From contig NZ_BBLY01000004.1 of NCBI RefSeq assembly GCF_000971175.1, positions 306,298-370,297 of the forward strand: a DNA stretch of 64,000 nt. Reading direction: 5' to 3'. Origin of the DNA: Demequina pelophila. GTDB taxonomy: Bacteria > Actinomycetota > Actinomycetes > Actinomycetales > Demequinaceae. The notes beneath the pieces were generated by a model. It had not been told where the DNA came from. It searched no databases and saw only the letters and a program-made list of their open reading frames with translations. Position 1 is the stretch's first letter; the number at the start of each line of letters is the position of its first letter. Positions 47,938 to 56,851 of this stretch are shown in pieces. The translations under genes were made by a program, and so were the position numbers.

Positions 47938-48267
47938 ATGTCTGCCACCGATGTGACTCCTGAGAGCCTTGCGCTCCGCGATCTCATCGACGCGCGTCGG
48001 CAGGAGTTCGACGTGCTTCTGGCAAAGTATGCGGCGACTCGTCCGCGACTGTTCGGTTCTGTCGCTCGAGGCACGGCTCACGAGGACAGTGACATCGACA
48101 TCCTTGTGGAGATGGACCCCTCCGATGGCAACCTTCTCATGCGGGCTTCGGGGCTGATGGAGGAGGTCAGGGCGCTGTTTGGTCGTGACGACATCGACGT
48201 CTTCCCGGCGCAGTTGCTCAAGCGGCAGGTCTCGCAGTCGGCCATCGAGGATGCGGTCGCTCTGTGA
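47938..48267 (+). CDS. mntA: MntA-type nucleotidyltransferase antitoxin
   Basis: A minimal nucleotidyltransferase of 109 residues. The active-site pattern GS (40-41, FGSVARG) followed by DID at 52-54 (SDIDILVEM) is intact, with a third acidic residue in DDIDVF. In the type VII MntA-HepT systems this protein AMPylates the HEPN toxin and silences it. ATG 47938 is preceded by CTATCCTGGGG. The stop overlaps the toxin start (GTGA). T-ending codons and lower G+C than the surroundings suggest transfer. Confidence 0.88.
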   Translation: MSATDVTPESLALRDLIDARRQEFDVLLAKYAATRPRLFGSVARGTAHEDSDIDILVEMDPSDGNLLMRASGLMEEVRALFGRDDIDVFPAQLLKRQVSQSAIEDAVAL

Positions 48268-48614
48268 GTCGCAGCGTCGAGCAGCGAATCGAGGACATCC
48301 TTGACGCGGTCGAGCGGTGCCGTCGGTATGTCGCTGTTCTTGATGGTGGCGATTCCGACGTCATCGACATGGCTGAGGACGCGATCGAACGCAACCTGCA
48401 GATCATCGGTGAGGCCGCAAACCACCTGACCTCCGAGGTTGTCGAGGCGCACCCCGAGATCGCCTGGCCGCAGATCCGCGGGTTCCGCAACATCCTTGTT
48501 CACCAGTACTTCGGCGTCGACATCGACGTGATCCGGGACGTGGTGGAGAACTATCTTCCGCCGCTCGCTGACGCCGTGCGCCAGCATGTCGAGTCCGGCG
48601 AGGACATGCCGTAG
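48264..48614 (+). CDS. hepT: HepT-type HEPN ribonuclease toxin (DUF86)
   Basis: A 116-residue HEPN protein. The ribonuclease motif R-X4-H-X-Y is present as RNILVHQYF (Arg75, His80, Tyr82), so it looks active. Preceding helices (DILDAVERCRRYV, ERNLQIIGEAANHL) are typical of DUF86. With mntA it forms a toxin-antitoxin pair that may act in plasmid or island stability or phage defence. GTG 48264 overlaps the antitoxin stop. Codon use is unlike that of the neighbouring core genes. Confidence 0.9.
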   Translation: MSRSVEQRIEDILDAVERCRRYVAVLDGGDSDVIDMAEDAIERNLQIIGEAANHLTSEVVEAHPEIAWPQIRGFRNILVHQYFGVDIDVIRDVVENYLPPLADAVRQHVESGEDMP

Positions 48615-50162: not shown

Positions 50163-50296
50163 CAGGCCGATGCGGGGCAGGCGGAGCGGGTCACGGAAAG
50201 CATCGTACGGAGGGACGATGCGAGGCGGCCCGGGCAGGCCACCGCCAGTTCCTTGGGAGAGTACAAGGGCCCGGATTTTGGCTGGATGCAAGTGTT

Positions 50297-50313
50297 ACGT
50301 TGTTCGGCAACGT
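50297..50313. promoter_or_regulatory. small palindrome in the exporter cassette leader
   Basis: ACGTTG-TTCGG-CAACGT forms 6-bp arms around a 5-nt centre. It is a possible operator in the divergent spacer between the pseudouridine synthase and the ABC exporter. Confidence 0.35.
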
Positions 50314-50455
50314 TCGCCGCTGTGTCCCCCTGGGGCGCGACGCCGGTCCGAGCGTACGAGCACCGCCCAGGCGGTGCATCGTCTCCCGGCAAGAGGCGCG
50401 GTGCCTCTCCGTCGTGAACTCAGGTGCGCTGATGAGGCGCCTCATGGAGGTATGT

Positions 50456-52279
50456 GTGCAGGGTCGAGCAACCGGCTCCTCGAGCCAAACCCGCGAAGAG
50501 CGGCGCCGCGGACGCGGTGCCCCCACCACCGGACCCGTCCCCGAGGACACCACGGTGGTCCCCGAGGTCACGCAGAAGCGCGGCTGGAGCCGCTTCTTCC
50601 TGCTGGTGCGCCGCTCGCGCGCCCCGTGGCTCCGGATCCTCGTCGCCGTCGGCGTCATCTACTGGATGACCAGGTTCTCGGTGAGCGCCACCGAGCCGGC
50701 CAGCCAGCTGCTGACCGGCGACGTGAGCGTCGAGAACGTGACCCTGTTCATCGAGCTCACGCTCGCGGCGACGCTGCTGATGCTCGTCAGCGGGGTCCTC
50801 ACCGACTACCTCACGGCCGTCACCAACCGGAACCTGCGCACCTCGCTGTGGAAGCACATGCTGCGCCTGCCGCTGTCGTCGTTTGACAGGACGCCGCCCA
50901 CCGAGCTGCTGTCGCGCCTCACCAACGACGTCGCCAACATCGGCGGCTGGCTGGTCCAGACCCTGGTGACCGCCACCACCATCATCATGGCCGTGTCGAT
51001 GGCGGGGCAGAGGCTCATGGCCGCCAACCTCGACCCCATCCTGATCTGGGTGGCCGTCGCGGGCCTCCCCATCCAGTGGTTCATCGGGTGGGCGTTCGGC
51101 CGCCTCATGTACGTCTTCAGCCGCAACCTCACCACCGAGGGTGCACGCACCACCGTGTCGCTCGCCGAGCGCCTGGTGAACATCCCGCTCATCAAGTCCT
51201 TCTCTGCGATGGACCGCGAGACCGAGCGCGTCAACGGCGCGCTCGACAAGCTCTACAAGGCCAACACCCGGATGGGCTTCGGCATCACCGCCATGACGCC
51301 GATCAAGACCCTCGGATCTCTCGCCATGGACCTGCCGGTCCTGATCCTCGGTATCAGCCTCGTGGGCGCCGACTCCATGGACGTCCAGGGCTGGGTGTCG
51401 TACTGGATGCTCTCCTCCGTGATCCAGGCCGCGGGCTCGCCCGTGCTGAGCCTGTGGGTGGGCGCCAAGTCCGTCCAGGGTGGCACCGCCCGCCTGGGCG
51501 CCATCTTCGAGACGGAGATCGAGACCGGCGGCGACGTGGCCCCGGTGACGGCCGCCCCCGAGGTCGCCTTCTCCGACGTGCACTTCGCCTACGGCGACAA
51601 CCCCGCGCTGCGCGGCCTCACCCACACCTTCCGCCCGGGCACGTGCACCGCGATCGTGGGCCCCAGCGGCGGCGGCAAGTCGACGCTCATCGCGCTCGCG
51701 CAGCGCCTGTACGTCCCGACCGCCGGCGAGCTGACCGTCGACGGCGTCGAGGTCTCCCAGTACCGCCTCGAGGAGTACCGGCGCGGCACGGGCAGCGTGC
51801 CCCAGGGCGCGACCGCGCTCGAGGGCACGGTCCGCGAGAACCTGCTCTACGGCCTGCGCTCGACCGTCGGCGACGACGAGCTCTCGGCCATGATGGACCG
51901 CGTCTGCGGCCCCGACCTCCTGGCGAACCTGCCCGACGGCCTCGACACGGTCGTGGGCGACACCGGGGTGCAGCTCTCGCCCGGGCAGCAGCAGCACCTG
52001 CTGCTCACCCGCATGCTCCTCGAGCCGCACCCGGTGCTCCTGCTCGACGAGCCCACCGCGAGCCTCGACCCGGTCGCCGCGCAGCGCGCGATGACCGCGG
52101 TGCGCGAGGTCGCGAGCGACGCCACGGTGCTGATCGTGGCGCACACGCCGGCCGCCGTGGCGGTGGCCGATGCGGTGGTCGTCGTCGAGGAGGGCCGCGT
52201 CACCGCCGCGGGCGCCGTCCGCGACCTCGCGCAGACCAACCCCTACGTCCGCAGCCTTGTCGAGGGAGACCACGCATGA
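50456..52279 (+). CDS. ABC exporter subunit with degenerate signature motif
   Basis: A half-transporter of 607 residues with six predicted membrane helices and one ATPase domain. Walker A is GPSGGGKSTLIAL, Walker B LLLLDEPTASLD and the H-loop LIVAHTP. The signature is changed to LSPGQQQHLLL, as expected for the degenerate half of a heterodimeric exporter. GTG 50456 follows GGAGG by 5 nt; ATG 50432 and 50444 are possible. Its stop overlaps the partner start (ATGA). The substrate is unknown, possibly a peptide. Confidence 0.9.
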   Translation: MQGRATGSSSQTREERRRGRGAPTTGPVPEDTTVVPEVTQKRGWSRFFLLVRRSRAPWLRILVAVGVIYWMTRFSVSATEPASQLLTGDVSVENVTLFIELTLAATLLMLVSGVLTDYLTAVTNRNLRTSLWKHMLRLPLSSFDRTPPTELLSRLTNDVANIGGWLVQTLVTATTIIMAVSMAGQRLMAANLDPILIWVAVAGLPIQWFIGWAFGRLMYVFSRNLTTEGARTTVSLAERLVNIPLIKSFSAMDRETERVNGALDKLYKANTRMGFGITAMTPIKTLGSLAMDLPVLILGISLVGADSMDVQGWVSYWMLSSVIQAAGSPVLSLWVGAKSVQGGTARLGAIFETEIETGGDVAPVTAAPEVAFSDVHFAYGDNPALRGLTHTFRPGTCTAIVGPSGGGKSTLIALAQRLYVPTAGELTVDGVEVSQYRLEEYRRGTGSVPQGATALEGTVRENLLYGLRSTVGDDELSAMMDRVCGPDLLANLPDGLDTVVGDTGVQLSPGQQQHLLLTRMLLEPHPVLLLDEPTASLDPVAAQRAMTAVREVASDATVLIVAHTPAAVAVADAVVVVEEGRVTAAGAVRDLAQTNPYVRSLVEGDHA

Positions 52280-54060
52280 CCACGCTGACTCCGGCCGCGC
52301 GTACCGCGCGTCCCCCGCGCAAGGGCGCCTGGAAGCGCTTCTTCCGTATCTTCCGCCTGGTGCGCTTCCCCTGGATGCTCTTCCTGATCGGCACCGGAGC
52401 CTCGCTCGCGGTTGTCCCCGTCACCATCTTCGCGGCCTCCGTCAAGGCGAAGGTCCGCATGGGTGACATCCTGGGCGACAACTTCGTCTGGCTGTACGTC
52501 GCCGTCATCTTCATCCCCATCCTCGTCAGCACCGGCGCCGCCATCGCGATGGTCTTCATGGGGGCCAAGGTCCAGCGCTCGGCGCAGGGCGTCGCATGGC
52601 GCAAGCTCTCGAGCGCCTCCATCGAGGACCTCGAGGCGTTCGACAAGCGCGAGCAGGTCTCGCGCGTGACCAACGACACGTCCGGCATCTCGCAGATTCC
52701 CGGCGAGGTCATCAACCTGGTCACGGGCCTGTACTCGATCGGGGCCGCCGTGGTCGCCATCGCGACCGGCCAGAACGTCACCCTCGCGCTGTGGTTCCTC
52801 ACTCTCATCCCGCTGACCCTGGCGGTCACGTGGTTCCGCGGCTGGCTCTCGCAGCTCGTGGGCCGCCGTCACCAGGACGCGTACGGACTGGCGACCAGCT
52901 ACTTCGCCAACCGCCTCCAGCGCGTGCGCGTGCTCAAGCCGCTGGGCCTCAACGCGGAGCACGAGGCCGAGGGCACCGTGCCCAACGACACGCTCTTCCG
53001 CGCGGAGATGTGGGCCACCCTGCGCACGTTCGTCGGGTCCATCTCCAACTCCACCATCACCACCATCGCGGCGCTCATCGTCTACCTGGTGGGCGCCCAG
53101 CTGGTGCGCGATGGGGAGATGGGAGTCGAGGGCATCGCGCTCGGCGTCGAGATCGCGGGCGTGCTCACCGCGGCGATCATGACCTCGATCTCCAGCTATG
53201 CCGAGGTCAAGGACGTCCAGGGCGCCACCGAGAAGCTCGCCGTGGTCCTCAACCTCCCCGACGAGCAGTCGGCCGAGGGCGACGCCATCCCCGAGTCGCC
53301 CCGCGACATCCACCTGCGCGACGTCCGCCTGGAGCGCGGCGGCTGCCCGGTGCTGCACGACGTCTCGCTGGACTTCCCGGCCGGCTCGGTCACCGCGATC
53401 GTGGGCCCCCGCGGCAGCGGCAAGTCCACGCTCCTGCGCGTGCTCGACCGCAGCCTCGCGCCCACGAGCGGCGAGCTGCTCCTGGACCACGAGCCCGCCC
53501 GGCGCTACTCGCTCGACTCCTGGCGCGAGGGCACTGCCCTGGTCCCGCAGGACTCGGCGATGCTGTCCGGCACCATCGCGGACACCATCCGCTTCGGCGA
53601 CCTCGAGATGGGCGACGAGGAGCTGCGCGAGGCCGCGAAGACGGCCGCCGTGGACGAGTTCGTGGACCGTCACCCCGACGGCTATGGCCGCGCCATCGGC
53701 CCCGACGGCGCCGGCCTCTCCGGCGGTCAGCGCCAGCGCGTGGCCATCGCCCGCGCGGTGGCGACCCGCCCGCAGTACCTGCTGCTCGACGAGGCCGCCA
53801 GCGCCCTCGATGCGGTCACCCACGAGCGCGTCGCGGCCAACCTGCGCGAGGTCTTCGACGGCCGCACGGTCGTCATGACCTCGCACCACCTCGAGACCGT
53901 CCGCGACGCCGACCAGATCGTCGTCATGAACGACGGCACCGTCGAGGCCGTCGGCACCCACGGCGACCTGCTCGCCGCATCGGCCACCTACCGATCCCTG
54001 GTGACCGCCGCCTCCACCACCCACCCGACCGCCAACCAGGAGGGCATGCGCCGTGATTGA
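52276..54060 (+). CDS. ABC exporter subunit, canonical partner
   Basis: The 594-residue partner half-transporter. It shares the N-terminal pattern KGAWKRFFRIFRLVRFPWMLFLIG with the first subunit (KRGWSRFFLLVRRSRAPWLRILV), showing duplication. The ATPase domain has Walker A GPRGSGKSTLLRVL, intact signature [17 protein letters not shown], Walker B YLLLDEAASALD and H-loop VMTSHHLE. The last 8 nt overlap the start of the first M16 peptidase gene, so the exporter and peptidases form one translational unit. Confidence 0.92.
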   Translation: MTTLTPAARTARPPRKGAWKRFFRIFRLVRFPWMLFLIGTGASLAVVPVTIFAASVKAKVRMGDILGDNFVWLYVAVIFIPILVSTGAAIAMVFMGAKVQRSAQGVAWRKLSSASIEDLEAFDKREQVSRVTNDTSGISQIPGEVINLVTGLYSIGAAVVAIATGQNVTLALWFLTLIPLTLAVTWFRGWLSQLVGRRHQDAYGLATSYFANRLQRVRVLKPLGLNAEHEAEGTVPNDTLFRAEMWATLRTFVGSISNSTITTIAALIVYLVGAQLVRDGEMGVEGIALGVEIAGVLTAAIMTSISSYAEVKDVQGATEKLAVVLNLPDEQSAEGDAIPESPRDIHLRDVRLERGGCPVLHDVSLDFPAGSVTAIVGPRGSGKSTLLRVLDRSLAPTSGELLLDHEPARRYSLDSWREGTALVPQDSAMLSGTIADTIRFGDLEMGDEELREAAKTAAVDEFVDRHPDGYGRAIGPDGAGLSGGQRQRVAIARAVATRPQYLLLDEAASALDAVTHERVAANLREVFDGRTVVMTSHHLETVRDADQIVVMNDGTVEAVGTHGDLLAASATYRSLVTAASTTHPTANQEGMRRD

Positions 54061-55366
54061 CGCATCGAACATCCGCCGGCTCGACAACGGGATGACCGTG
54101 ATCGTCGAGGACCGTCCCACGGTTCCCGTCGTCACCGTCGACCTCACCTTCGACATCGGCTCCAAGCACGAGGTCGACGGCCAGCGCGGCGTCGCCCACC
54201 TCTTCGAGCACCTCATGTTCTACGGCTCCAAGAACGTGCCGTCGGGCGAGCACATGAGCACCATCAACTCGGTGGGCGGCGTGGTCAACGCGAGCACCGG
54301 CCTGGCGCGCACCCGCTACTTCGAGACCATCCCCACGCGGGCCCTGCGCCGCGCGCTGTGGCTCGAGGCGGACCGCGTCGCGACCCTCGCCGAGGGAATC
54401 AACGCGGAGGCGCTGCGCACCCAGATCGACGTGGTGCGCAACGAGGCGAAGCAGCGCTACGCGCGCCCCTACGGCGGCATCTTCGAGCGTGCGCTCGAGG
54501 AACTGTTCCCGGTGGGGCACCCCTACCGCATCGGCCCCATCGGCCTCATGGAGGACCTCGAGGCCAGCACCGTCGAGGACATGGTCGCGTTCTTCCGCCG
54601 CTACTACACGCCCGCCAACGCGGTGCTCACCCTCGTGGGCGACGTCCGCGTCGAGGAGGGCTTCGCGCTCGCGCAGGAGTACTTCGGCGGCATCGTCGGT
54701 GCGCCCAAGCCCGAGCCGCTGGTGATCGACACCCTGCCGCCGCTCGCGAACGTCCCCACCCTCGCGGTCACGGACACGGTGCCCAACCCCGCCACGTACT
54801 ACATGTGGCGCACGCCCTCGATCGTCGACGACGCGGTGCCCGCGCTCGACATCGCGTTCGCGACGCTGTGGGGCGGCGCGAGCCGACTCCAGTCGCGCCT
54901 GGTCCGCGACACCGGCCTCGCGCTGCGCGTGCAGCCCATGTCCGAGCGCATGCTGGGCAACGGCTTCCAGTGGGGCGGGATCTTCCTCAAGGACGAGAGC
55001 GCGCGGCCCGAGGTACGCGCGATCGTGACGGAGGAGCTCACGCGCCTCGCCGAGTCCGGACCCGACGAGGTCGAGTTCGAGATCGCCGGCGCGCTGATCG
55101 AGCGCGCCGAGGCGCGCTCCACCACCGACGTGGGCGAACGCGCCGCGGCCCTGTCCGATGCGCACCTCGCGTTCGGCGACGCGACCGCCGCCGATCGCGC
55201 GGTCGACCGGCTGCGCGCCGTGACGCCCGAGCAGGTCGCCGCGGCCGTGGGCGAGTGGCTGCGACCCGAGTCCGCGATCGTCATCGACTGGAACCCGGCG
55301 GAGTCCGCCGCGACGGCGGGGAAGTCCGCAGACAGGGCCGCCGCCGCGGTCGAGGGGAGCAACTGA
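54053..55366 (+). CDS. M16 zinc peptidase, catalytic subunit
   Basis: A 437-residue insulinase-family protein with an intact inverted zinc site HLFEH (His49, Glu52, His53) and the distal glutamate in VVRNEAKQRYARPYGG. It would supply catalysis in a heterodimer with the following subunit. There is no signal peptide, so it acts in the cytoplasm or at the membrane, unless carried otherwise. GTG 54053 overlaps the exporter stop. Such pairs process peptides, for example in some bacteriocin loci; the substrate here is unknown. Confidence 0.9.
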   Translation: MIDASNIRRLDNGMTVIVEDRPTVPVVTVDLTFDIGSKHEVDGQRGVAHLFEHLMFYGSKNVPSGEHMSTINSVGGVVNASTGLARTRYFETIPTRALRRALWLEADRVATLAEGINAEALRTQIDVVRNEAKQRYARPYGGIFERALEELFPVGHPYRIGPIGLMEDLEASTVEDMVAFFRRYYTPANAVLTLVGDVRVEEGFALAQEYFGGIVGAPKPEPLVIDTLPPLANVPTLAVTDTVPNPATYYMWRTPSIVDDAVPALDIAFATLWGGASRLQSRLVRDTGLALRVQPMSERMLGNGFQWGGIFLKDESARPEVRAIVTEELTRLAESGPDEVEFEIAGALIERAEARSTTDVGERAAALSDAHLAFGDATAADRAVDRLRAVTPEQVAAAVGEWLRPESAIVIDWNPAESAATAGKSADRAAAAVEGSN

Positions 55367-55367
55367 C

Positions 55368-56714
55368 ATGACCGTTCTCGCGCCCAAGCCCGAGCTCCCC
55401 GAGTTCACCCCGTGGTCCGTGCCCGTCCTGGAGGAGTGGGTGACGTCCGCCGGCACGCGCGGCCGCCACCTCGAGTCCGAGGGCACCATGCTGCACGTCT
55501 TCATGAACTTCCGTCAGCCCCGCGACGCCGAGCCCCGCGCGATCGAGGGAGTCACCTCGCTCATGGGCCGGCTGTGGAACGAGGGCCCGGTGGGCCTCGA
55601 CGCCCAGCAGTTCGCCACCGAGTGCGCGCGCCAGGGCCTGCAGATGCAGCTCTCCGGCGGCATGCGCGGCGCCGGCATCGGCCTCAACGTGCCGATGGCG
55701 CGCGTGGAGGGGGCGCTCGCCCTGCTCGCCCGCGTGCTGCTCGAGCCCCGCTTCTCCGAGACGGACCTCGAGCGCGTCCGCGCGAACGTGATCGCCGAGC
55801 GCAAGGAATCGCGGTCGACCCCCTCGACCGTCGCGGAGGAGACGCTGAACTCGGTGCTGTTCGCCGAGCACGAGCGCCAGTCCCGGCCGGGCGAGGGCAC
55901 CGAGGCGGAGATCGCGCGCATCACGCGCGAGGACATCGTCGAGCGCTTCGAGACGCTGCTGCGCCCGCAGGCGCTGACCGTCGTCTCCTCGGGCCCGCTG
56001 TCCACGGAGGAGTTCCAGGCGCTGCTCGAGGGGAGCCTGGCCGCGTGGTTCGCGCGCGAGGGACGCCCCGCGGACGAGGACGGCGAGCCCGCCGAGCTGC
56101 GCGAGCCCGGCCGCCTCGTCTTCGTGGACATGCCCGGTCGCCCGCAGACCACCCTCAAGCTGGCCACGCCCACCGTGCCGGCCTCGGACCCGCGCAACGG
56201 GTCGCTGAGCCTGGCGGCGAAGATCCTGGGCCAGGGCCTCGAGTCGCGCATCAACTCCGAGCTGCGCGACCAGAAGGGCTACACCTACGGCCTGAGCGCG
56301 TACGGCAACATGGGCAAGGACCGCGGCGCGTTCGCCGTCATGGGCAACGTCGAGGCGAAGAGCACGGGCCCGGCGATCGCCGACCTGCTGCGCATCATCG
56401 CCGACTTCCGGGCCGAGGGCCCCACCGCCGACGAGCACCGCCGCGCGGTCGAGTCCAAGGTGGCCAGCCTGCCCATCCGCAACCAGGACCCGGCCGCGAT
56501 CGCGCGCGACACGGCGGGCGCGCTCATGCGCGGCCTGGGCGGCGACTGGTCGGCGCGCCAGGTCGAGCAGTACATGGCGTCCACCCCGGAGTCCATCCGG
56601 GAGCACTTCGCCGCGATCATCCCCGAGCGCATGTCGCTCGTGCTGGTGGGCGACGCGGAGACCTGCCTGCCGCAGCTCGAGGCCGCCGGCGTAACGGTCG
56701 ACGAGGTGCGCTGA
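55368..56714 (+). CDS. M16 peptidase, non-catalytic subunit
   Basis: A 448-residue M16 homologue without the HxxEH zinc site. It keeps the Arg/Tyr substrate-binding stretch [28 protein letters not shown], the mark of the partner subunit in two-chain M16 peptidases. ATG 55368 starts 1 nt after the previous stop, so the two are made together. A strong hairpin ends the cassette behind it. No precursor peptide gene is evident nearby. Confidence 0.9.
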
Positions 56715-56739
56715 CCCCTCTCGCGCACGCACGAACGCC

Positions 56740-56786
56740 CGGGGCCCGGGCGCCGGAACGCCACTGTTCCCGGCGCCCGGGCCCCG
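56740..56786 (+). terminator. strong hairpin after M16 genes
   Basis: Arms 56740-56759 and 56766-56786 pair over 20 bp with one bulged G; the left arm starts CGGGGCCCGGGCGCCGG. It lies 25 nt after the stop and closes the exporter-peptidase operon. Confidence 0.85.
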
Positions 56787-56851
56787 TCGCATACGGACCC
56801 GGCCCGTGCATCGGCCCCGGTCCCGGGCGTCCCGGGGTTAGGGTGCGAACT

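Follow-up and report, generated by a model that had tools for sequence, protein, structure and literature searches.

Does the placing of an ABC exporter and a two-subunit M16 peptidase in one operon mean that both act on a single peptide, cutting it and then exporting it, or are the two merely neighbours with no shared substrate? The question is raised by a locus of Demequina pelophila (genome of 2.68 Mb, 99.99% complete, 73% GC) that lies within the 64,000-nucleotide stretch of DNA analysed here, referred to as the window. The locus comprises the following features.

50456-52279, plus strand: ABCa, ABC exporter half, 607 aa, GTG start (Pfam PF00664 4.7e-26, PF00005 9.4e-25)
52276-54060, plus strand: ABCb, ABC exporter half, 594 aa (Pfam PF00005 5.2e-29, PF00664 1.2e-13)
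54053-55366, plus strand: catalytic M16B subunit, 437 aa (Pfam PF00675 5.1e-17, PF05193 9.3e-20)
55368-56714, plus strand: non-catalytic M16B subunit, 448 aa (Pfam PF05193 4.5e-25)
50206-50455, plus strand: divergent intergenic leader between the start of a pseudouridine synthase gene (about 50205, minus strand) and ABCa
56740-56786, plus strand: 17-bp perfect inverted repeat 3' of the operon, from a repeat scan, without a T-run

Gene organization of the locus

The Pfam domains found above cut-off are ABC_membrane and ABC_tran in each exporter half and Peptidase_M16 and M16_C in each M16 half. ABCa and ABCb overlap by 4 nt (ATGA), ABCb and the catalytic M16 gene overlap by 8 nt, and a 1-nt gap separates the two M16 genes. 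These overlaps imply co-transcription and translational coupling of the four genes. The gene order of exporter pair followed by M16 pair is thus as originally predicted, and the phrase ‘fused in one operon’ used in that prediction holds in the sense of a single operon, a gene fusion not being meant. The 17-bp inverted repeat downstream is a probable transcription terminator. The operon lies between the pseudouridine synthase gene and a plus-strand PhnA/YjdM-like gene. Further upstream, two small overlapping genes at 47938-48614 encode an MntA-like nucleotidyltransferase domain and a HepT-like RNase, and are likely to be a toxin–antitoxin pair.

In-frame ATG codons are also present ahead of the GTG start of ABCa, at 50432 and 50444. 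A promoter scan of the leader (50206-50455) found no sigma-70-like site, an RNA scan gave no match to RNA families, and the predicted fold was not significant (z = -1.6, with 14 of 200 shuffles equally good). A repeat scan identified several short inverted repeats in the leader of ABCa. Within 50290-50455 these include a 14-bp palindrome, ATGAGGCGCCTCAT, at 50432-50445, and the pair GCACCGCC/GGCGGTGC at 50360-50377, each a possible operator.

The M16B peptidase pair

The two M16 subunits carry complementary residues, in keeping with the earlier assignment of one as catalytic (HLFEH) and the other as non-catalytic (R/Y). The zinc site of the catalytic subunit consists of HLFEH at residues 49-53 (H49, E52, H53) together with E131, while its own R/Y loop has no tyrosine; the non-catalytic subunit lacks HxxEH and presents the R/Y pair as R300/Y307. 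Comparison with 60 homologous pairs revealed no substitution among the aligned key M16 residues, and R300/Y307 is present in 61/61 sequences. As judged from these residues, both subunits keep everything required of an active M16B heterodimer, which they would be expected to form. The closest solved relatives are the active subunit of 3ami/3amj for the catalytic subunit (3.5e-37) and the inactive subunit of 3amj for its partner (1.2e-21), the two chains of 3amj constituting one heterodimer, SPH2681/SPH2682 of Sphingomonas sp. A1. This enzyme shares the M16B design, with HxxEH on one subunit and R/Y on the other; unlike in the D. pelophila operon, no accompanying exporter is described for it in the M16B literature found, and only non-physiological substrates are given (PMC12731061). 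A crude scan detected no hydrophobic (signal or transmembrane) segment in either M16 subunit, and the pair is therefore taken to be cytosolic.

The ABC exporter halves

ABCa and ABCb, which are 29% identical, are adjacent half transporters each containing a TMD and an NBD, the layout of a heterodimeric ABCB-type exporter. ABCb has the canonical LSGGQ signature and keeps Walker A, the catalytic glutamate and the switch histidine, as expected of the half originally described as canonical. ABCa, described in the same prediction as degenerate, has an LSPGQ signature in place of LSGGQ as its sole deviating motif; its Walker A, Q-loop, Walker B glutamate and switch histidine are all intact, and LLLDE is found in both halves. 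Loss of the Walker B glutamate is given as the hallmark of a degenerate ATP site in PMC7544095, and since neither half shows this loss, ‘degenerate’ is too strong a term for ABCa. The sequences point instead to a mild asymmetry between the halves. BmrCD and TM287/288 are likewise heterodimeric exporters of two non-identical half transporters encoded in tandem, from which ABCa differs in retaining the Walker B glutamate and switch histidine and deviating in the signature only. No C39 peptidase domain is present in ABCa or ABCb according to Pfam, and among the matches listed neither half reaches the cut-off of a curated NCBIfam export family. In a search for defence systems the ABC halves gave only weak matches of a generic ATPase type and the M16 subunits gave none, and this assignment was rejected.

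Distribution of the M16 pair and of the four-gene cassette

Among 47 genomes of the Demequinaceae the cassette occurs in D. pelophila only; the 46 others match only with an M16 protein, about 25% identical, presumably of the single-gene type that is widespread and lies near pnp. In the order (396 genomes) the M16 pair was found in 31 further genomes, all of one family and at most 31% identical to the non-catalytic subunit. In the class (395 genomes) 72 match, D. pelophila included, and among the matches listed 39 belong to one large-genome genus (g127), which is probably Streptomyces, as an M16 pair of this kind is also found on a named Streptomyces plasmid. The M16 pair is common in Actinomycetes.

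We read 60 related M16 loci together with their surroundings, to a distance of about 7-8 kb in either direction or less where contigs end. The order catalytic to non-catalytic is kept in all 60, and these stand-alone pairs, 27-44% (catalytic) and 23-33% (non-catalytic) identical to the window subunits, possess all key residues, but none has an exporter-like match beside it within that range. The sensitivity of the ABCa query was judged adequate, since it recovers generic exporters with which it shares 27-32% identity across some 500 residues. Frequent separation of the two gene pairs in relatives, which the original prediction had named as counting against it, is largely what these loci reveal. 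The neighbours of the stand-alone pairs vary. In the annotated locus L114 a gene for topoisomerase IV/gyrase A adjoins the pair, as does one for an M23 peptidase. Genes for inositol monophosphatase and for an oligopeptide-binding protein lie next to it in L068 (family f17), which may point to the recycling of peptides, and elsewhere the pair has other neighbours. For the stand-alone M16B pair of the large-genome actinomycetes, probably Streptomyces (L113-L116, L178-L184), no described role was found in the literature.

Searches with ABCa, ABCb or the non-catalytic M16 subunit as query found no second four-gene cassette in the family, the sampled order, class and phylum, the GTDB contigs or plasmids. 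Outside D. pelophila there was no ABCa match at or below 1e-90 in 297 class genomes or at or below 1e-65 in 376 phylum genomes, and no ABCb match at or below 1e-72 in 386 order genomes, three to four candidates being scored per genome, such that misses are possible. The scan of GTDB contigs, by a short-peptide-pattern method that would miss divergent cassettes, gave two remote M16 relatives only. Among the sampled genomes the linkage of exporter and M16B pair is a single-genome event.

A tree built from both subunits jointly places the window proteins at matching positions, both on long branches. They branch outside nearly all of the stand-alone pairs: outside the main actinobacterial ones, and also separately from L117, L132 and L128, the most remote actinobacterial pairs, which lie nearer to relatives from Planctomycetes and Gemmatimonadota. 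The matching positions indicate that the two subunits stayed together, and the tree suggests that they travelled as a pair and diverged from the stand-alone pairs.

These observations bear on the possibility that the two gene pairs are chance neighbours, a general cytosolic peptide-degrading M16 pair, as such pairs may be in other Actinomycetes too, and an unrelated drug or lipid pump, brought under a common promoter by a rearrangement but acting on different substrates. The solitary occurrence of M16 pairs beside varied genes and the lack of a second genome preserving the linkage both fit such an origin, as does the fact that the best solved matches of the exporter halves are general ABCB-type pumps. 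Against it, the three junctions are tighter than recent random juxtaposition usually gives, and the long M16 branches suggest a changed function. Because linkage in one genome leaves the coupling without comparative support, chance proximity retains appreciable weight as the chief alternative, a real if somewhat doubtful possibility.

The empty site and the history of the operon

In a sister species (G019) no cassette lies between the genes for the pseudouridine synthase and the PhnA-like protein, which are divergently oriented and separated by about 70 bp, and the wider gene order is shared with the D. pelophila locus; six more sister loci likewise have no cassette. The insert in D. pelophila spans roughly 50214-56840. 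As the cassette is absent from all 46 other family members, gain here is favoured over loss in the relatives. The codon usage of the cassette is normal (0.81-0.88 against a genome mean of 0.82), which gives no support to a foreign origin on this measure and, together with the intact genes, argues that the operon is not recent debris. An 11-bp direct repeat, AGGTGCGCTGA, brackets the four genes at 50422-50432 and 56704-56714, and its second copy closes with the final stop codon of the operon. No other candidate for transposon ends was found, and with a chance of occurrence of about 0.1 by hand estimate this repeat was rejected as such.

Sporadic presence at a site that is empty in sister species also fits an accessory function such as peptide resistance, in which the exporter would expel antimicrobial peptides and any that entered the cytosol would be destroyed by the M16 pair. 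M16 enzymes of other bacteria do degrade host or foreign peptides, as exemplified by HrrP in Sinorhizobium (PMC12731061). The insert, however, encodes neither a regulator nor a sensor kinase of the sort usual in peptide-resistance operons, and we consider this role improbable.

Precursor and substrate class

Neither flank of the cassette contains a credible ORF of at least 12 aa. Profile searches of the D. pelophila genome detected no LanC-like (PF05147), SPASM radical-SAM (PF13186) or YcaO (PF02624) protein, whereas the same searches were positive in control genomes. The earlier remark that no modifying enzyme or obvious precursor is nearby is thereby upheld, and extends for these enzymes to the whole genome. 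This makes lanthipeptides of classes I-IV unlikely, as it does products of the subtilosin and YcaO types; the candidates left are class V lanthipeptides, lasso peptides and unmodified peptides.

AlbE/AlbF of the subtilosin A cluster is likewise a two-gene M16B peptidase tied to peptide maturation, and that cluster includes a radical-SAM SPASM enzyme. The analogy with subtilosin, drawn in the original prediction, therefore extends to the design of the M16B pair but not to the modifying enzyme, for which no counterpart was detected in the D. pelophila genome. An M16B pair is involved in subtilosin maturation according to a review (PMC12731061), and experiments have established M16B pairs as leader peptidases of class III lanthipeptides (PMC8960859). 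These latter enzymes, Bcn-gP1/gP2 and PttP1/PttP2, have the same two-subunit design, trim peptides and are encoded outside their biosynthetic clusters (PMC8960859); their cleavage needs modified lanthipeptide precursors, in contrast to D. pelophila with no LanC-like protein detected. These precedents speak for a role of the operon in maturing and exporting a bacteriocin of the lanthipeptide or sactipeptide type produced from another locus, but the negative searches in an almost complete genome make that very improbable.

A possible route of cleavage followed by export

The reading we prefer, and hold tentatively at a little short of an even chance, is that in this lineage specifically a standard M16B peptidase became joined to a heterodimeric exporter, for the trimming of a peptide in the cytosol and its subsequent export. 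Of the proposal that cleavage is joined to export, the physical joining of the exporter to the two-subunit M16B peptidase stands, while its conservation in relatives does not. The four-gene operon would have been acquired or assembled in the D. pelophila lineage. The chamber of the M16B heterodimer would enclose a short peptide in the cytosol. Held by the R/Y pair of the non-catalytic subunit, the peptide would be cut at the zinc site of the catalytic one, and the heterodimeric ABC exporter would move the trimmed peptide outward in an ATP-driven step. The peptide would be encoded elsewhere in the genome and is probably unmodified, since enzymes of three main families of RiPP modification went undetected. 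Functional coupling of the M16 pair to the exporter, the peptide nature of the substrate and the direction of transport are what we infer from this arrangement.

In yeast, the M16 enzyme Axl1 and the ABC exporter Ste6 serve a-factor. By analogy, the operon might be dedicated to cutting an unmodified peptide and then exporting it, which would make it a bacterial counterpart of the a-factor system; we regard this as rather unlikely. The component parts are familiar; the linkage of exporter and M16B pair was found nowhere else searched, and its restriction to one genome limits the value of the operon. For bacterial M16B pairs few physiological substrates have been identified (PMC12731061, PMC8960859), and an operon tying such a pair to an exporter offers a concrete place to seek one.
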